This document shows, piece after piece, positions 904 to 51,690 of a stretch of 64,000 nt of DNA. Below the pieces are notes generated by a model, which was not told where the DNA came from, did not search any database, and saw only the letters and a list, made by a program, of their open reading frames with translations. The translations under genes and the position numbers were made by a program. Position 1 is the stretch's first letter, and every line of letters starts with the position of its first letter. Source of the stretch: Bolinopsis microptera (lineage: Eukaryota; Ctenophora; Tentaculata; Lobata; Bolinopsidae); the NCBI RefSeq assembly GCF_026151205.1, contig NC_087076.1, positions 13,687,675 through 13,751,674 of the forward strand, written 5' to 3'.

Positions 904-1039
904 GGACACGTTCATTTGAGTTTGAGGATATTGGTAAACAAAAATAATAGCGTTTTTGACGATAGTGGCTTAATTTTGACATCTATTAAGGACACGTTTT
1001 TTTTAAGTGTGGTGAGTTGCTGATTTCACCTTTTTCAAA

Positions 1040-2590
1040 GTAGAGTGCACAAAATGAGGAAAAAGTCGCAATGCTTTTTAAAGTGCAACCATACATTTGT
1101 ACATAGGATGAAGTGAAAATATTCAGCAGTTGTGATTTGAAAAAACGAAGTGCCAGGCTCAAGCAGAATATGACTTATGAGCAATTAAACTGAGTGCCAA
1201 AAATCAGCAAACCATTTTAACCTCCAATTACCTAATTCCATTGATTTCGCCATATTTTGTTCAAATATTGTTCACATAACACTAGTAGATTGGAGCGAGT
1301 AACTGTTTTCAGCATTTTAGTCATTATTAGCAATTCCAGTAAGTGACAGAATCCAGCAAAAAGTCATTTTTATATCTGAATACGACTGCTCTATTGATGG
1401 TTCTTGTCAAAATATTAAAAAGATCAAGGCGTGACTGTGCTATTTTCTGGATAAGATAATGTTTGGTTGTGTCTTTAAACTTATTCTTACATGTCTATGT
1501 GCGAGCCATCAGCAAAAAGTCACACATGTATCAGCTTGAAATTTATCTTTTTTTAATTGATGAAATAAGTATCGAAATTTCAGTTCTCTTTTTCAGTCAC
1601 CTTATTGACTTTTAGATTGAAGGTGCCATTAATCAGTTAAAAGACGGCTTGAACTCTGTACTGCTTACACTCAATTATGTCCCGAGTGCCCAAATTCAGC
1701 ATATCAGTCATATAGATAAATGATGTAAAAAGACAAAAGTTGTCTATTTCTTGATCCATGGGTGTACAAGTGTTAGTTTAAGCATCTATTTCGAAAAGTA
1801 ATGTGTTCATAAAGGGGTCAAAAACAGATAATAATATTAGAGTGCCACTAATCAGCTGTAGTGACTGCTGCAGCCAGCGTGGGAATTACCAACTATTGTA
1901 AGTCAATATCAGCATTATTAATCATCTCAAACCACCAAATTGTTTATGTTGCAGATACGAATCTTAGTTTAGGTATATCCTGAAAATTTAGACAACAAAT
2001 GTGTCCTGAAAATCAGTAAAAAGTGACTTATTTGACAGAAATAGTCATTCTTACTGCTAAATGGCACTCCTTTTAGTTCAGAATATTGTTTGAGGGAGCG
2101 GTGTGCCTTTTTTGTTTAATGTGGCACAATTTTGTTGCACTGTGTGCCATTATTCAGCTTAAAATGACTTCTTTTTCTAGGCATATACCAATGGTAAATC
2201 ACATAAAATTTGTGCTTTGTAAGCAGTGTTGTGATAACCTGCTATAACTAACTTAAAACTGGCACAATGAACTTCAAACATCAATAGTATGTCCCAAATT
2301 TCCATGATGAACATGATATTGTTGTCAGAAATCTACTTTATCGTGCCAATAATCAGCAAAAAGTCATTTCTATGAAGATTTTAAGCTAAAAATATTATTT
2401 ATAAAATGAGTTTTTGCTGAATTAGAACACACAATATCGTTAGATTTTGTAAAGAATCATCTTGATGAACCTGCTTATGCTGTCAGACATCAATTGTATA
2501 GTGCCAATATTCAGCAAAGAGTCATTTCTTTCGAATTTTTAATCGTGATGAATTTGACCTAAAGATGACTTTTTACTGAAAACTGACACA
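1040..2590 (+). repeat. Dispersed motif array of element A
   Basis: About twelve copies of a motif close to GTGCCAATAATCAGCAAAA followed by AGTCATTT lie here at irregular spacing, for instance near 1195, 1350, 1508, 1845, 2145, 2343 and 2500. Some are partial, and one near 2555 is reversed. The right side of A holds reverse-oriented copies, for example near 12135. The copies are too far apart and too uneven for a tandem satellite. They look like protein-binding sites or relics of one, which is inference. Confidence 0.7.
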
Positions 2591-2702
2591 CTCTTAAGTT
2601 GATTTTCGAACAGAATGCTGTTGAGCAGAGTTAATCTCGACAGTATGATTGAAAAACGTTCTAATTTGTTGCTGTCTAGCTACTGCAATGTAAAAAAACT
2701 CA

Positions 2703-3690
2703 ATTACTCTAGTAGCAGGGAATAGTTGAGTGTGCACTTCGATGTGTACTATTTCTGACAACACAGGGTTGTTTGTTAGGTCATTCTTAACCAAAATCGT
2801 GTGGGTGCACAATTTCTTTCGCTAGAGACAACCCTACAGGGCAAATTTTCTAAATTACCCTCAGTCGCGTATACGAGATTTTCGTATTTCGGCTCCTGAA
2901 GGTCATAGAGACTTCAATTTTAGCTTAAAATTACCGCAATAGCCATATTTATATACAACTTATAAAGCAACATAAGGTCTCCAGTGCTTTGTTTTATAGA
3001 TATTGACAAAAAACTGTTTTTTGGTTCAGCGAACCAAAAATGGGACTGAATTTTGGTAACTTGAACTAGGAAGATCGTAGAGACTTGAATTTTAGCTTAA
3101 AATGAGCGCAAACATCACATTTATATACAACTTATAGAGCAATATAAGCCCTTTAATGCTTATTTGTTAAGATATTGACAAAAATCGGTCATTTTGACTA
3201 CACGCGTGAGGAAAAATACCAAATTGGGCAACAACTTTGGTCTTTTTTTGACCAGTTTTGTGCTCAAGTTATTAAAATGTGCTTTGATGTTGTAGATCGG
3301 GTGTTTTCTTCCAATATGGGTTTCGGTATAAATCCGGAAGCACCCGGTTCATGGGTGATAGGGGTTAAAAACCCTAAAATGTCAGGCGATGGGCGAGACA
3401 ATTGTCTGAATTTGGTTATAAAAAAACTTGCACTCTTTGCTAGGGTTTGCTTTTTTCTGCTACATCGATCCGATTTCTAACTACTAATCATCCCCCTCTA
3501 CATCATTCTCTTTTAGATACATGATTGCTATAAGTTCTTGAAGGTACATCCGGCATGATGTAAAGTCTATATCAAAGCATTTTAATGTGGTCTTAACAAG
3601 TTGCAAGATATTCAAGTTCACTAATAAAACAGAGATTGTAGGATATTTTTCTTTTACATATTGATTATTGAGTAATTTTGGTTACACATG
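2703..3690 (+). repeat. Left long inverted arm of element A
   Basis: This roughly 1-kb stretch is repeated almost exactly in reverse at 10195-11180. A 101-codon open frame at 3175-3480 is identical in both arms, but it has no recognisable domain and is not called a gene. Within the arm a unit of about 170 bp occurs twice in tandem (about 2898-3017 and 3069-3187). Near-identity of the arms suggests recent duplication or gene conversion. Confidence 0.85.
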
Positions 3691-3993
3691 TGAGGAAAGA
3701 TACCAAATTGGTTTACCAAACGAAGATTGTAGGTTATCTATTATTCTTTACATGATTATTGACGCAACTTTATAGTCAAACCTGTATTATTTTAAATATT
3801 TAATATTTATCCACACACTCCATAAGAATATTATTGGGAGTCATTTTGTGGTTAAAATTCGATTAAATCAGTATTTCCAAGCAAAAAACTGCCCCAAATT
3901 TCTCCTCCGAATATGGTCCGCTAGTTCGAAATTTTAGCACTTATAAACGTTATTGTTAGACATTACATTAGTGTAATACCACTGAGACCAGAT
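3691..3993. other. AT-rich DNA between arm and SINE
   Basis: Nothing was recognised in these 300 bases of AT-rich sequence, apart from a weak partial repeat of the arm sequence near 3683-3740. Confidence 0.4.
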
Positions 3994-3998
3994 GTAGT

Positions 3999-4408
3999 CT
4001 TATCTTATCTTATGAGGATTCGTTGCGACGCAACAAGGCCATCGAATGAGTCGACCACCTTTGTTATTTTACTTCGGCATTACCTGCATTACAATGTAAA
4101 CCAGCACTTTCAAGGAAGAGCTTTACAAGAAGCCGAAGGATCGTTCCTAAGGCCAGCAACGGTTAAGGCACTATGCCACACTTTCTTCGCCCGAGGCTTC
4201 GCTGTGTTGATCAAGCACAGCTCCTCATTTAACCCTCACACCCGATTTCTCGAGCATTCGGCTGAGTGAACCGTGGGGCTACATAGACCACTCGGGATCC
4301 TTAGCAGAGCGTCAACGACGCTCACCCCACGACTAGGCAGGCAGTGGGATTCGAACTCGCAATCTTACGATTACAAATCCGATGATCAACCAACTACGCT
4401 ACCTGGCC
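3999..4408 (-). mobile_element. tRNA-derived SINE
   Basis: Read on the minus strand, the 5' end (4408 downwards) is tRNA-like. It has a box A-like TAGCGTAGTTGG (4390-4401) and a box B-like GAGTTCGAATCCC (4347-4359). A seven-base loop with TGT in the anticodon position would suggest a tRNA-Thr origin, but the anticodon stem and acceptor stem do not pair, so this is not a working tRNA. The 3' tail is a short TAAGA repeat (on + strand: cttatcttatctta). GTAGT flanks both ends (3994-3998 and 4409-4413), a plausible target duplication. A fragment of the same family lies at 62835-62892. Confidence 0.8.
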
Positions 4409-4460
4409 GTAGTAATCTATCTTACTATATATAAAGCGAGACGATATATATTATATATAT

Positions 4461-5089
4461 ACTAGCAGGAACCCGTCTAACCCTAAAGTGGTGTCAAGAC
4501 TCGAGAGACTAAAATAATTATTACCTATTTAATTCGCGTTTTTGACACCACTTGGGAGTCCAAATTTTGGGCACTAAAATTATTATTCCTTGGCCAATTT
4601 TTTATTTTTTCATGCTGATTTGAAGGCCTTTATTATTATTATTTATTTAAAGCATTTGACCCAGTCAAAAAAGTTTCAGTTGTATATCTTTTACGGTTTT
4701 TGCGGAAAGTTGCGTTAAAGTTGATGCCGTGGTGTCAGTAAAATGGCACAGATATATATATATATCGTCTCGCTTTATATATAGTAAGATATATATATTT
4801 ATCTGTGCCATTTTAGTGACACCACGGCATCAACTTTAACGCGAATTTCTGCTAAAACCGTCAAAGATATACAACTGAAACTTTTTTGACTGGGTCAAAT
4901 GCTTTAATGGCCTCCAAATCAGCATGAAAAAATAAAAAATTGGCCAAAAAAATTGGAGTTTTAGAGCCCAAAATTTGGTACCCCTAACCCCAAGTGGTGT
5001 CAAAAACGCGAATTAAATAGGTAATAAAATAATTGTTTTAGTCTCTTGAGTCTTGACACCATTTTAGGGTTAGACGGGTTCCTGCTAGT
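4461..5089. mobile_element. Foldback MITE of 629 bp
   Basis: The sequence is a near-complete palindrome with arms of about 300 bp. It begins ACTAGCAGGAACCCGTC and ends with the reverse complement. The loop (about 4757-4797) contains an inverted copy of the DNA just outside the left arm (4424-4460, the TATATATAAAGCGAGACG stretch). No open frame and no clear target duplication were found. The loop suggests that the palindrome arose by a fold-back or template-switch event. Confidence 0.75.
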
Positions 5090-6373
5090 TCAGATTTAAA
5101 AGCGAAGAAGGTGCATCTGAAATAAAGAGAACTTTGCTGATCAAGAGAAAAGAATATTAAGAGATATCAGCAGCTGACAGAAGAGATTGCAAGCTCCAGA
5201 CAGTTCGAGTTCGAGTTCGAGTTCGAGGCATTTACACCCAGTGGAATAAATTTTAAATATGACTAGGAATCCAGTTTGGGAAGAAAAAAAGGCTATATAT
5301 TTTTCGGCCGCTTCGCGGCCGACTTGTCACTGGTCAGCTCTTCTCCCAGGTCAAGATTAGTTTGAAATGCTTAGCGTATCCATTAGAATAATTACCGGAT
5401 GAATATGCAATTGCAAATTTTGAAATTAAATAAAAAATTTCTGAGAATTCTTTAATTTATTTGAAACGCAAGGAAATATTTTTTAAAAGAACTATACAGC
5501 CTAGCCCACAGATGTCCGCACACTATTCATCATACTGACTCGGTAGATCGAGTTCTATGAATTGACTCTCATCAGCATAATGAACGTTTCGTTACTCTGA
5601 AAGTGGCTTCGACCTTGTGTCGATATTTGTGGCCTGACTTTGGATCTGAAGCTTGCTTCTGCCAGGTTAGATACAATATTGGACAATAAACAATGATAAA
5701 CTTCGGACTTAAAGCGGGATAGGGATGTATAATGGAGGGGGTTGTCTGCACTGTACTCTAGATGATCTAGGATGTGAAGCTTGCTTAAGCCTAGAACACA
5801 CGAGTTCCCCTGATATAGTAGCAATGGCTAGATTCACTTCCTTCCCACTTGCACTGTTGTTGACTTGTAGCTACAATATTAAATTGATTCGTGGAAATCG
5901 GTCTCGGATGTGAAGCTTCCTTAAGCGCCAAACCCTGAGAATACTGTATTACTCGAACTTCGAGAATTTTCTAAATGAATCTAGACTAAAGGAGCCAACT
6001 TGAATCCATAAAATTTTGAATGCTACATTTTAAAATACCGCTCTATATTTACACCGTTCACCAGTTAATATGGCTGGGAGGATTGGGAGGATTCATATTA
6101 GATTGTCGATTTAAGATTTACTTGATATTTTAGCGTATCAGAGCTGAAATTTTGCATGACTATTTCAAATGACTATTTTACATGACTATTTTTTCATATT
6201 CCGGGATGTTGAGGAAGGAGGAATGGATAGCGCGCGTTTTCTGCGCGTTTTTTGGTGTCTGAATGCGCAAAAAATAGTCAAGCAATCTTATAGGTAAGAA
6301 ATAGTCATGGAATCTAGGAATGCGCTCGATTCGAACTTCGAGTCGATAAAATGATGTAACATCATAATGCTAA
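5090..6373. other. Non-coding DNA with small repeats
   Basis: No gene was seen. Small features are a GTTCGA microsatellite at about 5202-5226, a GC-rich hairpin near 5300-5325 (cggccgcttcgcggccg), and three spaced copies of a 22-bp unit described separately. The stretch ends at the truncated start of the CR1/L2-like element. Confidence 0.5.
5642..5926 (+). repeat. Three copies of a HindIII-site-bearing 22-mer
   Basis: A unit close to GGATGTGAAGCTTGCTTAAG occurs at 5642, 5770 and 5906, spaced 128 and 136 bp apart. This suggests a degenerate tandem repeat of about 130 bp. The rest of the unit has diverged, and I recognise no function. Confidence 0.5.
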
Positions 6374-9061
6374 CATGTTGTTAACATAACCAATTTATCA
6401 GGCCCAGATGAAGATATATTCGAAGAAGTTATTTATAGTCACGGGTTCACGCCCACAATATCCATTCCCACACACCAAATGCCCCACTGCTCAAAAACGT
6501 GCATTGATAACATACACACTAATGACATTCACTCATCAACTATATCTGGAGTAATTCAGGATAGTGCTTCACATCACCAGCCCATTTTCTGCCTTCAAGT
6601 AATGAATTCTGATACTAGTTCGGAACAGAATAAATCACCTGAAAAAACAACCATTTATTATAACTATAGTAATGCAAACCTTGATAAGCTCTGTGAAGAA
6701 ATTGAAAACGACATAGATACATTTTACCACAGATGTGACTCTTTTGAATCCTTCATGGATCTGTTTCAAGAAAAGATAGATATATCTTGCAAATTGGCTT
6801 CACCAAAAACCACCAAACGAAATAATATAACAAATCCATGGATCACAAACGGCCTTATCAACTCTGTGGAGAAAAAAGCCAGACTTTATTTTGAATGGAA
6901 AAAAACAAAAACATTGTTAATTCCAGATGGGGATCTGGAAAGACATAATGTTTACAAGGACTACTCAAAATATCTTAAAATTGCCATAAAAACTGCCAAA
7001 ACCAGGTATTATGCTGAAAAGTTTGAGAAAAATAGCCATAACTCCAAAAAAACCTGGCAAATAATTAACGAGCTTCGTGGCAAAAAGAAGAATCAGCTAA
7101 AAGATGACTTCATTATAGATGGAACTAGAGTAATTTGTAGGCGGACAATTGCAAACAAATTCAATAGTTACTTTACATCTTTAGCTAGTAATTTAAATGA
7201 GAAGGTTTTGTCCGAGAACCAACTGTCTATCCAACCAATGCAATCATTTGTTGAGTTTATGTCGAAATCAGTCAACAGTTCAATACATCTAGAAGAAACT
7301 CATCCTGAGGAGATTCTTGAAATAATTCAAGAATTCGTCAACGGAAAAGCCAGTGATATACCAATAGCAGTTATCAAGAAACCGGCTCATCTCTTATCCA
7401 ACATATTAGCAATTTTGTATAATACATGTATTCAAAAAGGCACGTTCCCATCCATATTCAAAATAGGCAAAGTAACTCCTATCCATAAAAAAGATAATAA
7501 AGAAAATATTGAAAATTATAGACCTGTGTCAATATTGCCAATCTTTGGTAAAATATTTGAAAAAATAATATACAAACGGCTTTATACCTTTTTCACTGCT
7601 AATGACATTCTCAGTAATGAACAATTTGGTTTTCGAAAAGGCCACTCAACCTCACATGCACTCCACAAATCAGTTCATTCAATCACAACATCAACATCCA
7701 GTGGTAATCATGTTCTAGGAATCTTTATTGACCTAAGCAAAGCTTTTGATACTCTTGACCATGGCATTCTCCTGAGGAAACTGGAAAATTATGGGGTTAG
7801 AGGTCTAGCTCTAGGACTTCTAAAAAGCTATTTATCCGATAGATCACAGTATGTTTCATTTCTCAACACTACATCAGAGACTATGAATGTAAAATATGGA
7901 GTTCCCCAAGGTTCCATACTAGGCCCTCTACTTTTCTTATTATATATGAACGACATAATAAACTGTTACAAAGGCGATGAATGCAAATTTGTGCTCTATG
8001 CTGATGACACAAATATATTTATCACTGGACCGTCCAAAGAAGCAACATACTTGAAGGCCAATAAAGTTCTTGATTTCGTATGCAAATTCATGAGAAGTAA
8101 TCTCTTACATATAAATATGTCTAAATGCTGCTACATACATTTTCTACCTGCATACGAATCTGATGAAACCTGCGCCAGGGTTAGGCCGTATGCCAATGAA
8201 CATGACAAATCACAAGGAATATTTATAAATGGACACAAAATTGTCAAGGTTAGCAACACCAAATTTCTTGGTGTAGTAATTGATGAAAAACTTAGCTGGG
8301 GCCCACATATAGAATATCTAAGAAAAAAAATTAGATCCACTACAGGAGCACTTAACAGGATTAAACATTCAGTTCCAGGGGAACACTACCAAAAAATATA
8401 CTCTGCATTATTGGAATCACATCTTGCTTACGGAATAAGTGTTTGGGGCTCAGCTCTCAAAGACCAACCAAACGATAAGCTGTTCATAACTCAGAAACGT
8501 TGTATAAGAATCCTTTTTGGAGACCTAAATGCATACCTCGACAAACATGCCACTTGTGCACGAGCCAGACCTTATACAAAACAGAGGTTAGGAGCTGCTT
8601 TTTTCGAAAAAGAGCACACCAAGCCCATTTTTAATCGACTAAAATTGCTTACTGTTCAAAACTTGTACAAATACCACTGTATATCTGAGATATTTCGAAT
8701 TATGAAATTTCGCACTCCATACTCGTTGTATTGTACTATAGACTCATCAAAACGTGATACAAGCAATGTCATAATCCTCCCAAGAAAAACCAACACTTTT
8801 CTTTATATAGCCTCCAAATTGTGGAATAGCATACATAAACGGATTCTAAATGAGAATGGGGAAATCCTCACTACTTCTGTAGCTTTGGTTAAATTACGCT
8901 GTAAAAGTATCATCCTGGGATCTCAATCCATCAACAATAATAACACCTGGACTTACCACAACTTTCACATCGCCCCTCACTCAATCACAGACCAAACCAT
9001 TTCATCACTCACTCACCAAATTGCCGACCCAATATCTATTGAAGTGGCGAAAATTTTCTAG
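6374..9061 (+). CDS. Endonuclease remnant plus reverse transcriptase (ORF2p-like)
   Basis: The frame is open from 6374 and includes an internal ATG at 6479 that gives 860 residues. Before that ATG come residues typical of the end of an APE endonuclease (HGFTPTISIPTHQ). The terminal SDHxP-type motif reads ASHHQP here, so the catalytic Asp is missing. Numbered from the internal ATG, fingers motifs (HKKDN..ENYRPVSI) lie near residue 340, FIDLSKAFDTLDH near 420, GVPQGSILGPLLF near 475 and the catalytic YADD at 507-510. The C-terminal thumb region follows. The reverse transcriptase part has no stops and could be recently active, but the missing 5' end makes this copy dead. Confidence 0.85.
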   Translation, partial: HVVNITNLSGPDEDIFEEVIYSHGFTPTISIPTHQMPHCSKTCIDNIHTNDIHSSTISGVIQDSASHHQPIFCLQVMNSDTSSEQNKSPEKTTIYYNYSNANLDKLCEEIENDIDTFYHRCDSFESFMDLFQEKIDISCKLASPKTTKRNNITNPWITNGLINSVEKKARLYFEWKKTKTLLIPDGDLERHNVYKDYSKYLKIAIKTAKTRYYAEKFEKNSHNSKKTWQIINELRGKKKNQLKDDFIIDGTRVICRRTIANKFNSYFTSLASNLNEKVLSENQLSIQPMQSFVEFMSKSVNSSIHLEETHPEEILEIIQEFVNGKASDIPIAVIKKPAHLLSNILAILYNTCIQKGTFPSIFKIGKVTPIHKKDNKENIENYRPVSILPIFGKIFEKIIYKRLYTFFTANDILSNEQFGFRKGHSTSHALHKSVHSITTSTSSGNHVLGIFIDLSKAFDTLDHGILLRKLENYGVRGLALGLLKSYLSDRSQYVSFLNTTSETMNVKYGVPQGSILGPLLFLLYMNDIINCYKGDECKFVLYADDTNIFITGPSKEATYLKANKVLDFVCKFMRSNLLHINMSKCCYIHFLPAYESDETCARVRPYANEHDKSQGIFINGHKIVKVSNTKFLGVVIDEKLSWGPHIEYLRKKIRSTTGALNRIKHSVPGEHYQKIYSALLESHLAYGISVWGSALKDQPNDKLFITQKRCIRILFGDLNAYLDKHATCARARPYTKQRLGAAFFEKEHTKPIFNRLKLLTVQNLYKYHCISEIFRIMKFRTPYSLYCTIDSSKRDTSNVIILPRKTNTFLYIASKLWNSIHKRILNENGEILTTSVALVKLRCKSIILGSQSINNNNTWTYHNFHIAPHSITDQTISSLTHQIADPISIEVAKIF

Positions 9062-9232
9062 ACAAATGATATTTCGATATTATTGCTGCAGCAGATACAA
9101 ATACCAACATTATTATATTCCCAAACGTTTGAACCTTTAAATTAACTAGGAAAGTCAATCCTCAACTTGACTTTTACTGTTTTAAACAGATATGATGATA
9201 TTAACTTAATTTATTATTATTATTATTATTAT
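6374..9232 (+). mobile_element. 5'-truncated CR1/L2-like non-LTR retrotransposon
   Basis: The element begins in the C-terminal end of an APE-type endonuclease, continues through an uninterrupted reverse transcriptase frame to 9061, and has an AT-rich 3' region that ends in a TTA-type microsatellite at about 9209-9232, as in many L2/CR1 relatives. The 5' boundary lies near the in-frame stop at 6371-6373. I found no target duplication. A second, shorter copy of this family lies on the minus strand at 29237-29811. The clade is an inference from motif style only. Confidence 0.8.
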
Positions 9233-10194
9233 TTTTTTTACATACTCCTTCTTAGTGTGGTGACTTGGGGTCCATAAATATAACAATACAAGCTGATAAA
9301 CCAAAAAGAACAACTGGGGTAGGTAGGTAGACGTAGCCCTGGTGGGTGCGTAAACTTTACGGTCTGCTCTCTCCAAGATCAGCCTGCTTCTCCATTTTAC
9401 CGTGAAGCCTAATTTCTAGTTTTTATAAAATATACAATGCAAGTGCAGGTTTACTAATCTTAATCTACTTAACAACTCGATAGCCCAAGTCACCATACCC
9501 GTAGTATATTCCATGGTAATAGAAGAGCTTTAAAGTTTTTCAAATTGTTGCTATAATTGATTTAAATAAAAATTTGTTGTTTTCTTGAAAATTTGTTGTT
9601 TTCTTGAACATCGCGTTAGCCCTGAGAGCGACCAATTTTGATTTAATTTTAAATTAATGTGAATATTTTTTCCACAAGAATCTTTTTTTACCGGTTATCA
9701 ACAAATTTTGACTAGGTGTTAAATTCCTGGACGCCTGACTATTTGCCACTGGGCATTTACAACTGCAGCCTCCAAACCTTTATGAACCACCTGAACGTAA
9801 ACACTAAAGAGAAAAAGGCCTGCATGAAGATCGCGGAATTTAGCATGAGGGCATCATACACCATCTTTCTGTCCAGAAACACCATTATATGGACAGATGA
9901 TTGGGAGTTAGTCCAGAGGCTAGTAATTGCATAGTAGGAGCGTATAATGTTTGTAGAATGTAATTATTTTTACAAACTACCGTTCAAAACTTATAGATCA
10001 AGTGATAGCCTACCCACAATTATATTACAACGTCGTGGGGTCAGTTGATATTGTTGCTAAAAATCAGGAGCAAGCGTCTTGAGACAGGATACCATGAATC
10101 TGTATAAGTTTTAAGTAGTTTCATTCTACGTTTAATATTATTATTGGGTCGTTTACGTTAAAGTTATATTTGGCCATTTTATAGCCTCCCCTCA
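9233..10194. other. Non-coding interior of element A
   Basis: No gene was recognised. A 72-codon frame at 9716-9934 has somewhat protein-like composition (it starts MLNSWTPDYLPLGIYNCS), but it has no known motif, so it is only a possible exon or a fragment of a lost element. A short direct repeat (tttgttgttttcttgaa) sits at about 9570-9606. Confidence 0.4.
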
Positions 10195-11180
10195 AAAAGC
10201 CCACAATTACTCAATATGTAAAAGACCCAAAAGAAGAATATCCTACAATCTCTGTTTTATTAGTGAACTTGAATATCTTGCAACTTGTTAAGACCACATT
10301 AAAATGCTTTGATATAGACTTTACATCATGCCGGATGTACCTTCAAGAACTTATAACAATCATGTATCTAAAAGAGAATGATGTAGAGGGGGATGATTAG
10401 TAGTTAGAAATCGGATCGATGTAGCAGAAAAAAGCAAACCCTAGCAAAGAGTGCAAGTTTTTTTATAACCAAATTCAGACAATTGTCTCGCCCATCGCCT
10501 GACATTTTAGGGTTTTTAACCCCTATCACCCATGAACCGGGTGCTTCCGGATTTATACCGAAACCCATATTGGAAGAAAACACCCGATCTACAACATCAA
10601 AGCACATTTTAATAACTTGAGCACAAAACTGGTCAAAAAAAGACCAAAGTTGTTGCCCAATTTGGTATTTTTCCTCACGCGTGTAGTCAAAATGACCGAT
10701 TTTTGTCAATATCTTAACAAATAAGCATTAAAGGGCTTATATTGCTCTATAAGTTGTATATAAATGTGATGTTTGCGCTCATTTTAAGCTAAAATTCAAG
10801 TCTCTACGATCTTCCTAGTTCAAGTTACCAAAATTCAGTCCCATTTTTGGTTCGCTGAGCCAAAAAACAGTTTTTTGTCAATATCTATAAAACAAAGCAC
10901 TGGAGACCTTATGTTGCTTCATAAGTTGTATATAAATATGGCTATTGCGGTAATTTTAAGCTAAAATTGAAGTCTCTATGACCTTCAGGAGCCGAAATAC
11001 GAAAATCTCGTATACGCGACTGAGGGTAATTTAGAAAATTTGCCCTGTAGGGTTGTCTCTAGCGAAAGAAATTGTGCACCCACACGATTTTGGTTAAGAA
11101 TGACCTAACAAACAACCCTGTGTTGTCAGAAATAGTACACATCGAAGTGCACACTCAACTATTCCCTGCTACTAGAGTAA
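10195..11180 (-). repeat. Right long inverted arm of element A
   Basis: This is the reverse-complement partner of 2703-3690, including the same 101-codon frame (10404-10709, minus) and the same 170-bp tandem duplication. Differences are single bases, for example one in the GGTTCGCTGAGCC stretch near 10850. Confidence 0.85.
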
Positions 11181-11240
11181 ATTGTAATTTTGTGAGTGAA
11201 TTTTTACTGAATACAGGCACACAATAGGTTTTTCCTAGGT

Positions 11241-11246
<6 letters not shown>

Positions 11247-11271
<25 letters not shown>

Positions 11272-12013
11272 GAGAGGCTGGGCCTGGTTGGCCCACGAGA
11301 GGATAGCATATGGATGCTTTGCCTACCTCTGGGGTATGGCAGTCCTGTGGGAGGATGCCAGTGGAATCAAGATGTGTAATCACGGATGATGGTGAGTGTT
11401 GTGGGGTGTGTTATAGATAAACGGTTAAGTGGTGGTTGAGTGTGGAAGAGAGGGGCGAAACAAGACGGCGTTAAAGTAGTCGCTATGTTACACCTGTCTG
11501 GTCCAACTCCTCCGGCACCACCAAGCGTTTAGTGTGGTTTGTAAAGTTGACAATGGTGGAGATGTGTTGGTTGTCGAATATGTCATTGACAGAGAGGTAG
11601 TAGTCCCGGAAATATTGACCTCTTATTTGGGCAATAGCCGGGCACTGTCCGAGAAAGTGTGAGACAGTCTCCTCTCCGTCGCCGCATTTAGGACAAGCAC
11701 TTGTGTCTGATTTGTGAATGGTGTGTAGGTGTTTGTTGAGGCCACAATGTCCCGTGATGAGGTGCACTGCAGTTCTGTAATTTTGTCTGTTGTTACAGAG
11801 AGTAGTGTTGAGATTTTTGATGATGTTGATGTTTTTATGTCCAAGTGTCAGTTTAGTGTGTCTGGGACCATTAGTAATCCATGATTCTTGATTAAGTTTT
11901 GTGACTTTGTCGTTGATCAGGCGTTTGATGTAAGATTGTGGAATTGGGCAATTCAAAGTGGATTCACTGGTTGTGCCATTTTTGGCCAGCTCGTCTGCTT
12001 TTTCATTACCCCA
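11247..12013 (-). mobile_element. 5'-truncated RNase H-type non-LTR retroposon
   Basis: An 11-bp target duplication, TAGGTTACATT, lies at 11236-11246 and 12014-12024. A poly(T) run at 11247-11268 is the poly(A) tail of a minus-strand insertion. The coding remnant runs on the minus strand from about 12010 to 11483. It opens with an RNase H end motif (GNEKADELAKNGT) and later shows a CPKCGDGEETVSHFLGQCP zinc-finger-like motif, as found at the C terminus of I/Jockey-type ORF2 proteins. Only the last ~175 residues survive. The insertion interrupts the right motif array of element A. Confidence 0.9.
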
Positions 12014-12024
12014 TAGGTTACATT

Positions 12025-12306
12025 ATTACAGACCAACGTTTCTTGAAAGTTGTTACAGTTCATTCACAAGCTGATCGAAAGTATGGGCCTTGTACAACCC
12101 CTTCAACCAAACTAGAAATTTTACCAAACAAATGACTTTTTGCTTATTTTGAGCACAGTTCAAGTATTCCTACCCCAATCCAAATATTCTTTGAATAATT
12201 CTGAGACATAATCTGAATTTTGAACAGAAAAGTCGCAAAATTCAGTTTTTTACGGGCGTTTTAAACATTATAGTCCAAAATGCTGAAAACTGGCACTACC
12301 TTGGTA
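12025..12306. other. Piece of element A between two insertions
   Basis: This AT-rich piece has at least one reversed A motif (gactttttgcttattttgagcac near 12132). It belongs to the right half of element A and separates the RNase H-type retroposon from element D. Confidence 0.5.
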
Positions 12307-12313
12307 CTATATT

Positions 12314-15082
12314 GGGGGGGGTGACATGTCTCCAATGTCTCCAATGTCTTTTGTCTTTTTTGAAAAGATAGGGTGCAGAGACATGTCCTGGAGACATTGG
12401 AGACATTGGAGACACAGCTTTTGGAGACATTGGAGACATTGGAGACATTGGGGACATTGGAGACATTGGAGACAAAGCTTTTGGAGACATTGGAGACACT
12501 GGAGACGTAGATGTATGATTGGAGAAGGAGGAGGATCTAGGAGGAGGATGACCCAGGAGGAGGACTCAGGAGGAGAAGGAGGAGGATGAGGACTCAGGAG
12601 GAGGACTCAGGAAGAGGACTGAGGAGGACTGAGAAGGAGGAAAACTGAGGAGTACTGAGGAGGATGGCTGAGGAGGATGACTGAGGAGGATGACTGATAG
12701 GGAGGAGGAGGAGAAGAAGGACTGAGGAGAAGGAGAAGGAGGAAGACCTAGGAGGATGAGGGCCCAGGAGGAGGACTCAGGAGGAAGAGGAGGAGGAGGA
12801 CTCAGGACTGAAAAGGAAGAGGACTGAGGAGAACTGAGGAGGAGGAGGATTGAATAGGAGGAGGAGGAGGGGGACTGGGGGAGGACTGAGGATGAAGAAG
12901 ACTGACGAGAAGGGTGAGGAGGAGGACTGAGGAGGAGGACTGAGGAGGATGAAGAGGAGGAAGACCTAGGAGGAGGACTCAGGAAGAGGACTGAGAAGGA
13001 CAGAGAAGGAGGAGGACTGAGGAGTACTGAGGAGGATGGCTGAATAGGATAACTGAGGAGGATGACTGAGAGGGAGGAGGAGGAGAAGAAGGACTGAGGA
13101 GAAGGAGAAGGAGGAGGACCTAGGAGGATGAGGACCCAGGAGGAGGACTCAGGAGGAAGAGGAGGAGGAGGACTCAGGAGGACTGAAAAGGAAGAGGACT
13201 GAGGAGAACTGAGGAGGAGGAGGACTGAATAGGAGGAGGAGGAGGAGGGGGACTGGGGAGGACTGAGGATGAAGAAGACTGACGAGAAGGATGAGGAGGA
13301 GGACTGAGGACTGAAGAGGATGAAGAGGAGGAAGACCCAGGAGGAGGAGGACTGAGGAGGAGGATGAGGACTGAGGAGGACTGAGGAGGATGGCTGAGGA
13401 GAATGGCTGAGGAGGATGACTGAGAGGGAGGAGGAGGAGGAAGAGGACTGAGGAGGAGGAGTAGGACTGAGGAGGAGAAGGAGGAGGACCTAGGAGGAGG
13501 AGGACCCAGAAGGAGGACTCAGGAGGAGGAGGAGAACTCAGGATCAGGAAGAGGACTCAAGAAGACTGAGAAGGAGGAGGACTGAGGAGTACTGAAGAGG
13601 ATGACTGAGGAGGAGGAGCAGGATGAGAAGGACTGAGGAGGAGAAGGAGAAGGTGGAGGAACTAGGAGGAGGATGAACCAGGAGGAGGACTCAGGAGGAA
13701 GAGGAGGAGGACTCAGGAGGAGGACTTAGGAGGAATGAGAAGGAGGAGGACTGAATAGGAGGAGGAGGAAGACTGAATAGGAGGAGGGGGACTGGGGAGG
13801 ACTGAGGAGGAGGAGGACTGACGAGAAGGATGAGAAGGAGGACTGAGGACTGAGGAGGAGGAGGAGGATGAAGAGGACCCAGGAGGAGGAGGACTGAAGA
13901 GGAGGACTGAGGATGAGGACTGAGGAGGAGGATGAGGACTGAGGAGGACTGAGGAGGGTGGCTGAGGAAGATGACTGACAGGGAGGAGGAGGAGGACTGA
14001 GGAGGAGGAGAAGGACTGAGGAGGAGAAGGAGGAGGACCTAGGAGGAGGAGGACCCAGGAGGAGGACTCAGGAGGAGGAGGACTCAGGAGGAGAACTCAG
14101 GAAAACTGAGGAGGAGGAGGAGGAGTGAATAGGAGGAGGAGGGGGACTGGGGAGGACTGAGGAGGACTAAGGAGAAGGATGAGGAGGAGGACTGAGGAGG
14201 AGGATGAGGACTGAAGAGGAGGACTGAGGAGTACTGAGGATGATGGCTGAGGATGATGGCTGAGGAGGATGGCTGAGGAGGATGGCTGAGGAGGATGGCT
14301 GAGGAGGATGGCTGAGGAGGATGACTGAGGAGGATGACTGAGAGGGAGGAGGAGGAGGAGAAGGACTGAGGAGGAGGAGGAGGAGGAGGAGGACCTAGGA
14401 GGAGGAGGACTCAGGAAGAGGAGGAGGATTCAGGAGGAGGACTCAGGAAGAGGACTCAAGGAGGAGGACTGAGGAGAACTGAGGAGGAGGAGGAGGAGGA
14501 CTGAATAGGAGGAGGGGGACTGGGGGAGGACTGAGGAGGAGGGGGACTTGGGGAGGACTGAGGAGGAGGAGGACTGACGAGAAGGATGAGGAGGAGGATT
14601 GAGGAGGACTGATGATTGAGGAGGAAGAGGAGGAGTATGAAGAGGAGGAGGAGGACCCAGGAGGAGGAGGACCCAGGAGGTCCGGAGGAGGACCCAGGAG
14701 GAGGACCCAGGAGGAGGACCCAGGTCCCAGGAGGAGGACTCAGGAGGAGGAGGATAACGACTGAGGAGGACTGAGGAGGAGGAGGAGGAGGAGGAGGAGG
14801 AGGAGGAGGAGGAGGAGTCTCCAAAAGCTGTGTCTCCAATGTCTCCAATGCCCCTAATATCCATTTTATGTCCCTAATGTCCCCAATGTCTCCAATGTCC
14901 CCAATGTCTCCAATGTCTCCAAAAGCTGTGTCTCTAATGTCCCTAATGTCCCCAATGTCCCCAATGTCTCAAAAAGCTGTGTCTCCAATGTCTCCAATGT
15001 CTCCAATGTCTCCAATGTCTTTGTCTTTTTCGAAAAGATAAGGTGCGGGAGACATTGGAGACATGTCACCCCCCCCCCCCCC
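12314..15082. mobile_element. Element D: purine-rich foldback element with TSD
   Basis: The ends are G8-TGACATGTCTCC on the left and the reverse complement plus a longer C run on the right. CTATATT flanks both sides (12307-12313 and 15083-15089), so this is a bounded insertion with a 6-7 bp target duplication. The end arms (about 12314-12500 and 14815-15082) are built of repeated 9-mers (TCTCCAATG and its complement). A short segment (gtcttttt-gaaaagata-ggtgc) lies in the same orientation in both arms. The middle is a 2.3-kb purine-rich array. No transposase is present, so the element must be moved by another element's enzyme. Confidence 0.8.
12500..14820 (+). repeat. GGA-rich polypurine minisatellite
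   Basis: About 2.3 kb is made of variants of AGGAGGACTGAGGAGG. The + strand is almost free of long pyrimidine runs. Higher-order repeats of a few hundred bases are visible: the GACCTAGGAGGA, GAATAGGAGGAGG and GACGAGAAGGATGAGG blocks recur in the same order. Such DNA can form triplexes. Long frames on the minus strand encode only Pro/Ser runs and are not genes. Confidence 0.9.
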
Positions 15083-15252
15083 CTATATTATGACATATTA
15101 ACTAACTAATGGATTTTCCTTACAGGGGCAGTTAAGATTGAAGGCATTTCTGTGCAACACTTTCTAGTTACTAGTCATTTTACTTTCATTGTCAAAAGTG
15201 TCATGGCACTCAAAGTCATTTTCACCACACTTAAAAAAAAACGTGTCCTTAA

Positions 15253-17020: not shown

Positions 17021-17055
17021 TTTACCGATATCCTCAAACTCAAATGAACGTGTCC

Positions 17056-17640: not shown

Positions 17641-17641
17641 T

Positions 17642-44150: not shown

Positions 44151-44199
44151 ACAATTACACTGTTTCTATCTACCTGAATCTCCTCTGCCCACCTCTTCT

Positions 44200-45689: not shown

Positions 45690-46225
45690 AGACCCCCCAT
45701 TCTGGTTGCCAGACCCACTCTTCTAGAGTGCAGACCTACCATTTTGGTTGCCCGCCCTTCAAGAATCTAGAGTGAAGACCCCCAATTCTGGTTGCCAGAA
45801 CCCCTCTTCTAGAGTGAAGACCCCAATTCTGGTTGCCAGCCCCACTATTCTAGAGTGTAGACCAACCAATATGGTTGCCAGACCCGCCTCTTCTAGAGTG
45901 ACAGCGCCCCCACCATTCTGGTCGCCCAGACCCACTCTTCTAAGTGATGACCCACCACTTTAGGTTACCAGACCCACTCTTCTATAGTGAAGACCCACTA
46001 TTCTAGACTGCCGCCCCACCAATCTGGTAGCCAGCTCCACTCTTCTACCGGCGACGCCCCCCCAATTCTGGTTGCCAGCCCCACTATTCCCGCGTGTAGA
46101 CCCCACCATTCTGTTTGCCAGACCCCCTCTTCTAGGCGGAGACCCACCATTCTGGTTTGCCAGACCCCACTATTCCAGAGTGTAGACCCACCATTCTGTT
46201 TTGCCAGACCCACTCATCTAGGGCG
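45690..46225 (+). repeat. Minisatellite, second block
   Basis: About thirteen more copies of the two-part 41-bp unit lie here (AGACCCACTCTTCTAGAGTG alternating with CATTCTGGTTGCC). They run directly into the poly-C tract. Confidence 0.9.
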
Positions 46226-46238
46226 GAGACCCCCCCCG

Positions 46239-46347
<109 letters not shown>

Positions 46348-46399
46348 ATTTAAGACGATCACATGTGATATATTTAGCAGCAGTCCTTTAAGTTTAATT

Positions 46400-46996
46400 A
46401 CATCTTATTATATCTCGGTGCTGATATGTATAATCATTTTCGCAGCGCTGTACCTACTGTGGTTGAGTGAAGGTCCCAACTTTGTGTGTACTCAGTCATG
46501 GTTCCCAAGTAAGCTGCTTTTTGTGACCTCCTAATTCTTATAATCGGTGACAATATCTTTTTTCATTTCATGATCGAAATGTTTACCAATTCGTGTGATA
46601 TTTGATATTTGACTTCTGATAGAGGTCCTGATTCTATATTCAATGCATTGTTCTTGTCTATTACATAACCCCAGAACTTGAAAGGTTTCAGTTTTTACAC
46701 GTCTAACAACCCTCGTGTTTTGTTTCAGAGCTGAGCGTGATATCAACAACCCAACGAAGCGCGAGCGGCCTCTGCTATTGTGCCAACGCGATTCTGTCAC
46801 ACATATGGTCCCTTCGAAGACTTATGTTCACACTACCAGGCCCCCTACATATCATCTACGACGGATGTCTTTTAAATGTCCTCCGCAAGTGACAAGCAGT
46901 TCAGACGACCAATGTTGCGTGAACTGCTATGATGATCTTAAGATGCTGGCAGGCTGTACATCACATACAAAGGAACAAACTAAGACTGATGGTTAA
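46400..46996 (+). pseudogene. Possible two-exon gene fragment carried in the arm
   Basis: A hydrophobic segment (YYISVLICIIIFAALYLLWL) is followed by a possible donor at 46508 (CCCAA then gtaagc). A good acceptor ends at 46728 (tgttttgtttcag). After it comes a frame ending at 46996 with Cys-rich residues (SSSDDQCCVNCYDDLKMLAGC). The two arms differ by small insertions that shift the frame, so which frame is real cannot be settled. It could be a captured host fragment, an element gene or chance. Confidence 0.3.
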
Positions 46997-48319
46997 CATA
47001 ATGTTCATTTGATTATCACGCCGTGCTATGTTTTCATGTATTCGATTTAATATCTTATCTGCTTAAAAGAATTGTGTTATCATTTAGACATCAAGCTTCG
47101 TAAACTCGACATTTTCAATAGCTGCGGGCTAAACAAGTTTTCGCCATATTTCAGTCACTGTTTATCTTGTTATCATTATATCTGGTGGTTCAGACGAATA
47201 CACAATCTTACGTTCCGTTAAATATAACAAAAGGCGTGGTTAGTCACTGTAAATGCATCAAAACTGTCCGAAGAAATAGCTAAAGAAATTGTGCCAAATA
47301 CTGGCAAATTTTTAAAACTCTGCTCTCTTTAATTATTGAAATCCATCCAAGTAAAAAGTTGTATTACCAGAGAGGTTAAATTTAAATTTCAAACAACCTT
47401 GTTTACAGCTTCTTGGAAGAAAATGGAACCGGATTCTATTGGACGTTCTGAAAATGGTAAGGCTGAAAATGGTAGGGCTACAAAACTAAGTTGGAACACA
47501 TCTTGTTTGAATACTGTTGAACCAAATTCAACTCTCTGCAACAACACAAGCAGACAAAATTTCTCAAAATCCGTTTTATCTGCTCAACTGGTTCTAAATT
47601 CTTGAATCCAGCCAAGGGTATAATGGGTGTTCTGGGAGTGCTAGGGCCACCAAACTTCGTAGGAACACTATTAGGGTCAATACCAAACGATTCCGACCTG
47701 TTTTGGGGCCATCCGACGAGTTTTAGAAAAATGTTCATTTTTGTTCATTTCGTTCATTCCATGACTCAGGGAGTCTTGGGCGACTATTTTGACGTCAAAA
47801 TAGTTAGTAAACACATCCCCCTACACCGTACAATCATCTCCAGCACTCTGCAGCCCCTTTAACAGACTGAAATGACCGTATCAATATCGGATACTCACGA
47901 ACCAGCTTTCTGATACGGAAATGGAATCAAGTCTCTAGTGGGCGTTCTGGGAGTGCTAGGGCCACCAAACTTTGTAGGAACACTATAAGGGTCAATACCA
48001 AACGATTCCGACCTGTTTTGGGGCAATCCGACGAGTTTTAGAAAAAATTTCACTTTTGTTCATTCCGTTCATTCCATGACTCAGGGAGCCTCTGGCGACA
48101 ATTTTGACGTCAAAATAGTTAGTAAACACATCCCCCTACACCGTGAAACCATTTCCAGCACTCTGAGACTACTTTAACAGACTAAAATGACCGTATCAAA
48201 ATGCCTCAAAAACCGTATCATCTGGTTCCACAATTTCCGATTAATCTTCTGTTTGCCGCGGACGCGATACCTGAAACCTAATCAAAGCTTACGGCGCGGC
48301 TGACATTATCATGCTTTCA

Positions 48320-48367
48320 GGCGCGCGACGTTTCAGGCGCGCGACGTTTCAGGCGCGCGACGTTTCA
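48320..48367 (-). repeat. Subterminal 16-bp tandem repeat, right end
   Basis: Three copies of GGCGCGCGACGTTTCA form the mirror of 31005-31052, again 23 bp inside the element end. Confidence 0.9.
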
Positions 48368-49530
48368 ATACCACTCGTAGGTGGGCACACCAGTGTGACT
48401 GGCAGAAAGCAGCATGTTATCGTGGATGAGGTCATGTCCACGATCATCGACGTCATCAGTGGGGCTCCTCAGGGTACTGTCCTAGGTCCCCTTCTCTTCC
48501 TCATCTACATTGACGACATCTTCTCCGTAGTCAAGCACAGCAAGATCAAAGTGTTTGCAGATGACTCGAAGCTCCACAAAGATATATCTTCTCATATCGA
48601 TCGCATCCTTCTCCAAGAAGATCTTCTCTCGGTTGTGAATTGGGCTGATGCTAACAACATGGAGCTTAACGAGGAAAAGTTCCAGCTTCTACAACACGGC
48701 AAACTACCGGACTTGAAGCAGCCCTACATCTTACCATCTGGAGAGACTCTTAAGGGCTCTGACCACGTGAAGGACCTGGGTGTCTATATCGACCCAGACC
48801 TCAACTGGCGCACTCACATAGCGATGAAGTCTGCCAAAGCCAGAAACATGGCTAGTTGGGTGCTACGCACCTTCATCTCCAGGGATGTAGCGACCATGAT
48901 GCTCCTGTACAAGTCCTACGTACGATCTCATCTTGAATACTGCTGTCCTCTGTGGTCTCCTCACATGCAGTGCGAAATTATTAAACACGAAGCAGTTCAA
49001 CGATCCTTCACTGCTAAAATCCAGGGTCTTGGAAATCTCAACTACTGGGAACGCCTCCGTCGCCTGTCTATGTACTCCCTTCAAAGGCGGCGTGAGAGAT
49101 ACACTATCATCCTAGTTTGGAAGATCTATAACAATCTCGCTCCAAACAGCATGAACATCAACTTCCGCGAGACCTCACGATACGGAACTACGTGTATACG
49201 ACCACTAGGGTCCTCCAAGTACACAAGTGTCAATAACCTGAGGTTCAACTCCTTTGCCTCTAGAGCCTCTGCACTGTACAATGTGGTCCCTCCCGCCATC
49301 AAGTCCCTCCTGACCTTGACCACTTTCAAACCCGCTCTTGATACTTTCCTCAATGAATTCCCTGACACTCCACCAACACCTGGGTACACTGGACAGAACA
49401 GGAACTCAATGCTGGAGTGGGCCGGTGGCACGTGTCTCTGACACGCTACTACATGGCGGTGGAGATGCAAGACATTCTTGGCCTGGTAGCACTCTAGCTC
49501 GGAACCCAACCCAAGTAACCCAAGTAAGTA

Positions 49531-50090
49531 ATAGGTACATTTCATGTACTGGTGTAACAAACGGAGAATTTCGTTTGCTCTTTCATACAGTTTTTTTCTA
49601 CATTCATCTACTACGAATATTTTTTTATTTTATTTTTTGGTGCAGCACCTACTGACTTGACTCGAAAGAGCAAGCGACTCAATAATACCAAAGAGTCCTA
49701 CTGAGGCCCAGATGTTTGCGCCACTATCCCGGTAATGCAGAGATACATCTGGTACCATTGCAAGAGCAATGGCAGTTGAGTGGGGGCGCACAGTGGGCAA
49801 ATCGCAGGCGCCATTATGACATTAAGCTATTTTGTACTTTTCAATGACTAAAATATGTCTACTAAGGGGTTTTTGGCCCAAAAAATCGATTAAAACACTT
49901 TTCAGAGTGATTGGGGGGAAGGGGGATGAGATATTCTCATTTTTTGAATTTTTGAAAATTTTGATTTTTTCATAATTTGATGCGCTCATTCATATAGGAG
50001 TTTTGGGGTGGTGTTTTAAAGTTCTGATGTGTTTCTTCATGGTTTTATTACAATGAACAAACTTGTTTCTTACATTGTGCTCGATTATAT
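49531..50090. other. Intergenic DNA
   Basis: I see no gene or recognisable repeat between the 3' end of pseudogene X and element C. Confidence 0.5.
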
Positions 50091-51690
50091 GGACACGTTC
50101 AAAAAAAGGTGGCACTAGAGATTGATTTTTTTAAATGCGTTTTAAAAATAGTCATTGTTCTTTGTTGGTTGATATATCTATCTATACCTTTAGAAATTCG
50201 ATTAAATTTCATGATCCTGAAATCACGGAGTCTCTAGTGCTTATATTACAGGAGTTATCGTTATTTGTGTGCCAATGATTCAAATATCACACAATTAGAA
50301 ATGCAAGATGAATCAACACTAGATAATCTGAAAAGTACTATTCACAAAGACGTCAAAATTGATATGGTGATTATAATGCATGTAAGGAATGGAATGTCTT
50401 ATCTGAAATTGTTATTGGTGCCAAAATGATTCAAAAATCACAACTTAAACGTTGGAAATGAGCCTATTTTGAGCAGTGATTATTGAATCATCTTACGTTT
50501 TTATTGGCTTTCTATCATTTTTTAGGGTACAAAATAGTATTAAATAGTATTAAAACCAGTTAATATGATTCAAAAATCACATTTTCGTTAAAGGTGCGCT
50601 ATTAAGTCACACTATAGTAAGCCTTAAATTAAGTGCACGATATGACAATTTATATCCATTCTATGATTCTTATTATGTGATTTTTGAATCCATGTCTAAG
50701 CTTATACCATATTGAAGGCCTTTGAGCGATAATTTTTGATCTCGGTGCTTAAATGATTCAAAAATCACACAAATCTGGCTACCAAATATGTAATTTCCTT
50801 TAAAGTGTGATAATTGAATCATACGTAATGTTCAAGTTGTAATGACATTTTGAAAGTAAAGGTAATGAATCGATGGTCACATTTCAAAAATCCGATTAAG
50901 TATTATATGTTACTGATATGATTCATTTGTCACATTATGGCGACAAAATTATCATGGCTTGAGCTGTAAAAGTACTTGCCTAGTTTACTCAGTTTAAAAT
51001 CAATTTTTTGTGATTATTGATTCCACTATTACTCTAATAACGAACTTCTCCATGACCATAAACAAGTGTCACAACAAATTACTGCAGATTCATATGAATA
51101 CCAACCTGATATAGCGCCAAAAAGTGATACATTCCCCTGATACAGCATAATTTCAATACATGCTCATTTATGTGATTTTTGACTCATTATGGCACTTTTA
51201 ACCATCTAAATTCTCTAAATATTAGTTAGCATGATATAATTGTGATTGATAGAGTTCATTGTTACAATCGTTCCGTTGATATTCACATCACATTCATCAT
51301 TCTAAAACACTTAGTCAGAATTAACCCTGTGTGTGATAATTGCATCGTAACTCCACATTTAACCGGTGATACTTTGCACTTTTAACACTCAACTATCTCA
51401 AAAAGGTTCAATAATCACATTGAGAAGCAGGACACACTCACAGAATGTAAATTCATCATTAGAGGTGCAAGAAATGAATATTTTGTGATTTCTGGCTCAT
51501 ATCTGCACAATTAACAGATATAAAGAGATGAATGACTTAATTAAGTGATATTTGAATCTTTTTGGACCACATATTAAAATTTGGTTAACTTTCATAGCAT
51601 ACTCATTGAGATACAAGTATTTTAAAATGCTTCACACAATTTTGGCAGTGAAAAATCAATCTCTAGTGCCACCTTTTTATGAACGTGTCC
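50091..51690. mobile_element. Element C: intact 1.6-kb TIR element with motif array
   Basis: The 40-bp inverted repeats at 50091-50130 and 51651-51690 differ at one base. They begin GGACACGTTC and continue through GGTGGCACTAGAGATTG. The body has about fourteen copies of a motif close to TGATTCAAAAATCACA on both strands, for example near 50278, 50437, 50572, 50672, 50757, 50925, 51168, 51405 and 51545. No open frame encodes a transposase. Flanks (..ATTATAT and CTATGG..) give at best a weak duplication. It shares its terminal sequence and plan with elements A and B but not its motif. Confidence 0.85.

Follow-up and report, generated by a model that had tools for sequence, protein, structure and literature searches.

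Conserved ends combined with internal repeats that differ from one family to the next are a known arrangement among cut-and-paste DNA transposons. In the CACTA/En-Spm elements, the family-specific subterminal repeats are thought to be read by a separate, divergent protein that the element itself encodes (PMC2613891). Here we describe three elements of this kind, A, B and C, which lie in a 64,000-nucleotide stretch of Bolinopsis microptera DNA (the window; contig C5:13687675-13751674) and are bounded by the sequence GGACACGTT and its complement, together with two further families, B2 and D, from other loci of the same genome. Conserved tips with family-specific internal motifs are the known CACTA/En-Spm plan; the part without a described counterpart is a ruler of about 155 bp on which the internal sites are placed, for which a limited search of the literature on this point found none. 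We think it probable that A, B, C, B2 and D belong to one superfamily, that their arrays consist of putative protein sites that act in transposition, and that a base change seen at site after site between B and B2 follows a change in the protein that would read them.

Relation to described systems

The likeness to CACTA elements (Tgmt*, Tgm1 and En-1, with the protein TNPA) is extensive. In both cases the tips are short and conserved, the internal repeats are family-specific and occur in direct and inverted orientation, tip and internal motif diverge separately, even within one species, and non-autonomous copies are moved in trans (PMC2613891). An earlier note on this DNA, made from the sequence alone, had held that no described group has exactly this plan, a claim that the CACTA/En-Spm elements contradict. 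The differences lie in the termini and in the packing of the repeats. CACTA elements have CACTA(C/G) termini and a target site duplication (TSD) of 3 bp in Tgmt* (2-3 bp in the class), compared to GGACACGTT and a 4-bp WTAW duplication here, and their repeats are 12-20 bp long and closely packed (24 in 732 bp in Tgmt*), whereas the present elements have 13-22 sites in steps of about 155 bp over their whole length (PMC2613891).

The hAT elements (Hermes, Ac/Ds and Tol2) also carry many short sites, some of which are read by a BED domain apart from the catalytic core, and in Hermes, as here, the orientation of the sites is mostly opposite at the two ends (PMC10368747). Hermes differs in its 8-bp target and in its AAGT-type motifs, which are concentrated towards the tips and are asymmetric between the ends (PMC10368747). 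In Galileo, of the P superfamily, distant THAP sites occur within long terminal inverted repeats (TIRs; PMC3688188). However, only three such sites are described (at about 70, 561-577 and 701-718 bp), and the Galileo TIRs are long inverted repeats, whereas the two ends of an element here share an exact prefix of 11-36 bases. P-type TSDs are 7-8 bp long (PMC5199201), compared to 4 bp here.

Short and often AT-rich TSDs are a feature that the present elements have in common with Sola, Kolobok, piggyBac, Tc1/mariner and PIF/Harbinger. Sola duplicates 4 bp, which is the length found here, and Kolobok targets TTAA. In contrast to Kolobok, and to piggyBac, which also targets TTAA (PMC5199201), TTAA is present at only 4 of 36 pairs of ends (among the matches listed; see below). 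The concordance of all four bases argues against a TA-only duplication of the Tc1/mariner type. Tips and TSDs together speak against filing these elements under CACTA, hAT, P or the TTAA-specific families. Superfamily membership is decided by the transposase, and the families are placed here in none of the superfamilies named.

Elements in the window

The window contains six matches to GGACACGTT (at positions 904, 990, 15240, 17047, 50091 and 51682), which form three inverted pairs and bound A, B and C in the way that the earlier note had proposed (expected mean 0.17; six matches reached in 0 of 100 shuffles). A (990-15248) is nested in B, and has a perfect TTAA duplication at 986-989 and 15249-15252. 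Since A sits in B with TTAA on both sides, B is composed of 904-989 plus 15253-17055. The TSDs of the other two window elements are imperfect (TAAT/ATAT for B; ATAT/CTAT for C). The layout is as follows:

904-989, plus strand: left 86 bp of B, starting with the TIR GGACACGTTCATTTGAG (280 + 271 exact copies of the 17-mer in the genome; 0 for the reversed control)
986-989, unstranded: left TTAA duplication of A, inside B (from the sequence)
990-2705, plus strand: left block of A (A positions 1-1716), with most of its sites (genome matches)
1043-2591, unstranded: site array of A, GTGCcAaaAaTCAGCAAAAAGTCAttT, mainly inward (matrix scan)
2706-12013, unstranded: nested DNA in A, absent from four other A copies that cross this point
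12014-12313, plus strand: middle-right block of A, with at least one inward site (12129-12158)
12314-15082, unstranded: insertion in A, mostly GGA-rich simple repeat, absent from two other A copies that cross this point
15083-15248, plus strand: right end of A, terminating in AACGTGTCC
15249-15252, unstranded: right TTAA duplication of A (from the sequence)
15253-17055, plus strand: main body and right end of B
15341-16997, unstranded: site array of B, 18 sites, GTTtACTTTGTCACA read inward (matrix scan)
50091-51690, plus strand: complete C element, 1600 bp (genome matches)
50268-51567, unstranded: site array of C, 15 sites, ATGATTCAAaAATCACA (matrix scan)

The unusual length of A in the window (14.3 kb) is due to nested insertions. 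It was compared with 29 other A loci, 23 of which match it over positions 1-1716, either in one alignment or in pieces that end at 1716, and most of the A loci that were cut out around the left end stop soon after this position. The four that read beyond it resume, about 50 bp on, at 11025, and two of these four do so again at 14094. Other A copies thus skip from 1716 to 11025 and on to 14094, which gives a plain A copy of about 2.2 kb. The nested DNA of A includes a LINE-like open reading frame (ORF) at 6374-9061, with a reverse transcriptase recognized by eye (here and below, the labels LINE, Copia and Penelope were given to ORFs by eye from the translations, without a library search). Matches to the first 271 bp of A (40 scored of 55 candidates) have 89-100% identity, and those to the first 310 bp of C (40 scored of 155 candidates) have 94-100%, with the window copy included in each set.

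Copies, ends and target duplications

Genome-wide matches were obtained from an assembly of 264.7 Mb in 232 contigs. The sequence WTAWGGACACGTT has 993 matches (495 + 498), compared to 39 (26 + 13) for the reversed control. For pairing we used the 100 matches listed, all of them on contig C1; adjacent plus and minus matches less than 15 kb apart were taken as the two ends of one element, and the TSD pattern searched for was restricted to WTAW. Among these matches there are 36 adjacent pairs, 34 of which have a concordant 4-bp TSD (mean 16.4 and maximum 26 after shuffling of the right sides). Of the two discordant pairs, one is the end of a tandem cluster and the other has TTAT/ATAT flanks. On the left side the targets are ATAT (22), TTAT (7), TTAA (4) and ATAA (3), and in the 14 pairs with a target other than ATAT, the outer bases of WTAW agree on both sides in 12. 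The agreement between flanks spans four bases rather than 7-8 (e.g., L011, L018, L023 and L026; L-numbers, L009 to L093, denote element loci cut out elsewhere in the same genome). Element length is 1.6-3.15 kb in 28 of the 36 pairs and reaches 12.3 kb in the others. A, B and C are non-autonomous cut-and-paste transposons, with TIRs and matching TSDs in many copies.

The GGACACGTT tips are retained in all five families. B2 (L060 and L062-L066) has the same tips as B and mostly 74-86% identity to it in long aligned blocks. D (L061), again with the same tips, is represented by four copies with 99-100% identity over 419 bp; the copy in L061 is interrupted by a nested insert of 1172 bp, which is absent from the other three. 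In sequence, the right end of C (GGACACGTTCATAAAAAGGTG) is similar to the ends of D. Beyond position 50, the two arms of an element share at most short matches of 15-30 bp.

Internal motif arrays

Each of the three window elements has an internal motif of its own, enriched over shuffled and neighboring DNA, as had been proposed. Relative to 100 dinucleotide shuffles, the motif is present in 9 copies in A (mean 0.06, maximum 2), 14 in B (mean 0.42, maximum 2) and 15 in C (mean 1.18, maximum 5), and each motif has 0-2 copies in the other two elements and 0-1 per flanking stretch (n = 6). Taken by itself, the short A motif AGTCATTT gives a weaker signal (15 copies, compared to a mean of 5.1 and a maximum of 11; 1-5 in flanks). 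With refined matrices, there are 13 sites in A (20 with a looser matrix), 18 in B, 15 in C, 15 in D and 22 in B2, and at most 2 in base-shuffled DNA; these site sets depend on the matrix, and the matrices were built on the same sequences that they scored. Read inward, the consensus is GTGCcAaaAaTCAGCAAAAAGTCAttT for A, AtGTTtACTTTGTCACA for B, ATGTAAAcTTcGTCACA for B2, AtGATTCAAaAATCACA for C and ACACAAAAATCACA for D. The C and D motifs have CAAAAATCACA in common (0 of 1000 permutations), and the TCACA of the B motif is shared with C (p = 0.024) and D (p = 0.010). The A motif has a borderline likeness to the C and D motifs (p about 0.06), and the TGA-TTTTTG core that the earlier note had seen in both A and C is itself borderline (p = 0.058; p = 0.21-0.36 in a cruder comparison).

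Inward orientation is found for 62 of 83 sites; the orientation of the B motif was fixed after the first scan, and the p-value for inward orientation is somewhat optimistic. Orientation flips near the middle of the element, and the two arms mirror each other relative to both ends. When the terminal 60 bp of A, B and C are scored for the element's own internal motif, the best value at each end is below zero. Tips and internal sites thus look like two separate recognition elements.

It is hardly credible that the arrays are a by-product of base composition or of the way in which the matrices were built. The scoring of sequences by matrices derived from them would favor such an outcome, as would the recurrence of AT-rich words in AT-rich DNA. 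However, the arrays are missing from shuffled controls and from neighboring DNA, the spacing and phase of the sites agree between families even though neither was used in selecting sites, and the site switch between B and B2 (see below) is specific to a motif column.

Spacing of the internal sites

The earlier note described the spacing of the motifs as irregular, but the sites are in fact near-regular at about 155 bp and are locked to the ends. Over the five families, 40 same-strand distances fall between 140 and 170 bp (mean 10.1 and maximum 20 in 5000 random placements). Per family, the p-values are 0.005 for A, 0.02 for C, and below 1/5000 for each of B, D and B2, where the D copy still included its nested insert. 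A free scan of periods from 60 to 300 bp gives 162 bp, with a resultant of 0.49, a value reached in 0 of 2000 null sets (null maximum 0.37; steps of 1 bp for the data and 2 bp for the null). Inward sites in the first three steps of the ruler lie at the following distances (bp, from the nearer end):

A: left 203, 352, 508; right 322 only with the strict matrix, to which a looser matrix adds a site at about 180
B: left 175, 326, 491; right 197, 351, 511
C: left 178, 329, 468; right 184, 336, 497
D: left 187, 340, 500; right 174, 326, 477
B2: left 197, 351, 513; right 175, 326, 488

Bands at about 185, 335 and 495 bp from the end are all filled in nine of the ten arms, regardless of the motif (random mean 0.14, maximum 3 in 5000). 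The bands were picked after the positions had been seen, the arms that fill all three also hold inward sites outside them, and the ten arms are not independent, given that B and B2 share ancestry and that C and D share half a motif.

A ruler of this kind could in principle be inherited. If the interior were a decayed satellite with monomers of about 155 bp, captured between the ends, the motif would simply be its last conserved piece. Satellite monomers near this length are common. In the middles of the elements there are indeed direct repeats, offset from one another by roughly one or two steps of the ruler (158 bp in A, 322 bp in window B, 278 bp in the B copy L028, 321 bp in D and 305 bp in B2), so that part of the array grew by duplication of one or two steps. 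B2 contains tandem repeats of 303 bp (2.4 copies) and, more recent, 111 bp (6 copies), and the three site-free stretches of C are slightly more alike than shuffled sequence. We nevertheless regard a satellite origin as quite improbable. In the outer 560 bp there is no direct repeat of at least 30 bp in either arm of A, B, D or B2, and C has a single 37-bp direct repeat, around two sites of its left arm; the outer part of the ruler was thus not made by tandem repetition. Neither D nor the left block of A contains a long repeat according to Tandem Repeats Finder (TRF). Site-free stretches of 90 bp (non-overlapping; 7 in A, 7 in B, 3 in C, 12 in D and 12 in B2, the C comparison consisting of three pairs) score like shuffled sequence in A and B and slightly above it in D, B2 and C, the excess in D being a slight one on average. 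In addition, the flip in orientation near the middle does not fit a satellite, neutral decay that erased the sequence would also shift the spacing through insertions and deletions, and the T to A switch outside of the repeated middle would be left unexplained.

The B to B2 site switch

The two related families were compared using the B copy L028 and the B2 copy L066, which are about 79% identical where aligned. L028 has 24 sites past threshold, of which 19 are alignable (the other five, mostly in the middle that was left out of the alignment, are not counted). At motif column 11, B has T at 18 of the 19 aligned sites, and B2 has A at 15 of 18. Outside of the sites, the T/A exchange amounts to 6.7%, which gives a binomial P of 1.5e-15 (1.2e-13 when corrected for columns and changes). 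In B2, the four aligned sites that lack the T to A change fail to reach the threshold for a site. The repeated middle of B contains three of the 15 switched sites, which might not count as independent cases, since copying between sites is possible there; with this middle excluded, 12 of 14 sites are switched (P = 6e-13). A survey of column 11 in eight further B copies (nine rows, with one copy entered twice) and six B2 copies found all T in B and all A in B2 among the covered copies at 12 sites, the exceptions being two sites with a single departing copy and one site at which the B2 copies are variable. Column 12 shows a weaker change of like kind, with T to A at 8 of 19 sites.

A change in one motif column across so many sites suggests a putative protein reader with shifted specificity. 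Such switches are not constant, since part of L089, 87.7% identical to C, retains the C motif at the compared sites and has no similar switch. The proposal in the earlier note that recognition of tips and of internal sites evolve separately is supported, in that the tips are constant in five families, the motif is found away from the tips, and the motif has changed at homologous sites of B and B2.

Proposed role of the arrays

The copies, their boundaries and TSDs, the motif arrays, the spacing ruler and the parallel switch of sites are direct observations. From them we infer a protein that would read the sites, act in transposition and be encoded by the elements, and a spacing that would reflect either chromatin or the geometry of a complex. 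In the scheme that we favor, a transposase acting in trans would recognize the conserved GGACACGTT tip and cut there, and insertion would occur mostly into WTAW with a 4-bp duplication. The interior would be a two-armed array of binding sites of about 15-25 bp for a sequence-specific protein involved in transposition, with putative sites, mostly directed inward, every 155 bp or so from about 185 bp inside each end. Such an array would most likely aid the pairing of the ends and raise specificity in chromatin, a role that has been proposed for the repeats of CACTA and Galileo. If the specificity of the reader shifted, only copies with matching sites would be moved, and the same base would come to be replaced at site after site with positions kept; selection for being moved would keep about a dozen sites matched to the reader. 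The spacing may mean that each nucleosome-length of DNA carries one site, or it may follow from how a large complex is built. A more specific version, which we advance tentatively and would not bet on, is that the complex reads DNA at nucleosome scale, with an inward ruler (about 185, 335 and 495+ bp) that is independent of the motif, and that the reader shifts in each lineage and the slots follow.

The sites might instead bind a host chromatin or transcription factor, for example to gain open chromatin, to attract architecture proteins or to escape silencing, and the switch would then follow a change in the host factor itself or in the choice of factor. The sites span the whole element and not just its ends, and their spacing is near nucleosome length, both of which would suit a host factor, and in the ctenophore Mnemiopsis, DNA transposon insertions are present in more than 90% of loop promoters (PMC12221973). 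Still, we consider this explanation unlikely. The ctenophore loop-anchor motif, which was considered as a candidate for the internal motif and dropped, is GC-rich (PMC12221973), whereas the sites here are AT-rich. At least four distinct motifs in one genome fit element-specific readers better, and the mirrored arrangement of the sites with respect to the two ends points to a function in end pairing.

Several points weigh against a reader encoded by the elements and acting at regularly placed sites. For Hermes, the binding of additional transposases at inner sites was considered an improbable contributor to transposition in cells (PMC10368747). The duplicated middles described above show that part of the array arose by repetition, and B2 has five steps of 111 bp, so that the spacing can be broken. 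The GC profile is flat around the sites and gives no hint of nucleosome positioning. Conservation between B and B2 is no higher in the site cores (78.7%) than elsewhere in the DNA (79.5%), which follows from the switch and is sensible only if the switch is read in this way. A longer copy with GGACACGTT ends that encodes a transposase, which the earlier note had proposed to look for, was not recognized among the longer copies read, some of them only partly. Instead, their interiors contain simple repeats or nested elements, the latter LINE-like, Copia-like, Mutator-like (by eye) or with long TIRs; the inserts of L020, L062, L082, L084 and L092 fall outside of the classes assigned.

If the more specific version given above is nonetheless correct, B and B2 would represent one specificity switch caught in the act, with a record of co-evolution across about 15 sites. 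The question addressed is how a transposase keeps its ends specific while a DNA-reading part changes, and a single genome here provides families that are related, that agree in their tips and in the positions of their outer sites, and that differ in site sequence, among them two in which most homologous sites are distinguished by one and the same substitution. This makes it possible to test directly how a DNA-binding protein and its many sites co-evolve. Should the ruler reflect nucleosomes, the elements would also be a natural probe of the assembly of transposition complexes on chromatin.

Longer copies and other observations

The long copies examined were L009-L020 for B, L059 for A, and the B2 copies and D; further interiors were those of four long TTAA pairs, four long C-type pairs and two tandem clusters, while a 7.3-kb pair at C1:1337081 was covered only around its left end. 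In the window, the blocks that belong to A, B and C contain no ORF of at least 130 amino acids, and the longest ORF in the B2 and D copies L061-L066 is 87 amino acids. Pfam searches with five ORFs from long copies gave no match above the curated cut-off. The long copies also hold Penelope-like ORFs, two different long-TIR elements, and tandem host-like genes.

Three inserts were considered as possible transposase-coding regions and rejected. L011 (G000:C1:15635847-15644399) is not an autonomous B copy, since its insert has long terminal repeats of its own. This nested element (about 2397-8136) has inverted terminal repeats of about 700 bp and lies within a B copy, and one of its ORFs weakly matches an Rv2179c-like exonuclease (E = 0.051, below cut-off). 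L059 (G000:C1:7443100-7453000, reverse strand) was rejected as an autonomous A copy because its insert bears its own 350-bp repeats; here the nested element (about 408-3974), with 350-bp inverted repeats, lies in an A copy and has ORFs that by eye resemble an XPG/PIN-type nuclease and a cysteine-rich finger. In L015 (G000:C2:6441228-6446337), the insert at about 1255-3580 has an ORF that looks Mutator-like by eye and has no Pfam match at E values up to 1. It was set aside as a B transposase because the insert interrupts the B body, with sides that overlap by 9 bases, like a nested element.

Some copies are arranged in unusual ways. In the interval G000:C1:12307984-12315284, B left ends recur three times in one direction, at intervals of about 2.4 kb, and are followed by one right end, as in tandem or nested B copies. 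In L068 (G000:C1:5170750-5171650), a B2-like TIR with a TTAA flank leads into DNA that is not part of the element, in which an ORF on the minus strand resembles a portion of a UDP-glucosyltransferase; this may be a truncated copy or a gene capture. C-type ends repeat in one direction every 3.4-10.1 kb in L088 (C10:10707560-10711020) and L089 (C11:1675250-1679620), where they adjoin host-like genes (sushi-like and G-protein-coupled receptor-like by eye), and pieces of the element seem to have been amplified with gene clusters.

The GGA-rich simple repeat in window A (12314-14820) has a similar counterpart in a long C-type copy, L093 (C11:9873700-9875100), the likeness being judged from the sequence and from serine/proline/leucine frames. 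Elsewhere in the window, positions 45951-46534 are a long, low-complexity simple repeat that codes for proline on the plus strand.

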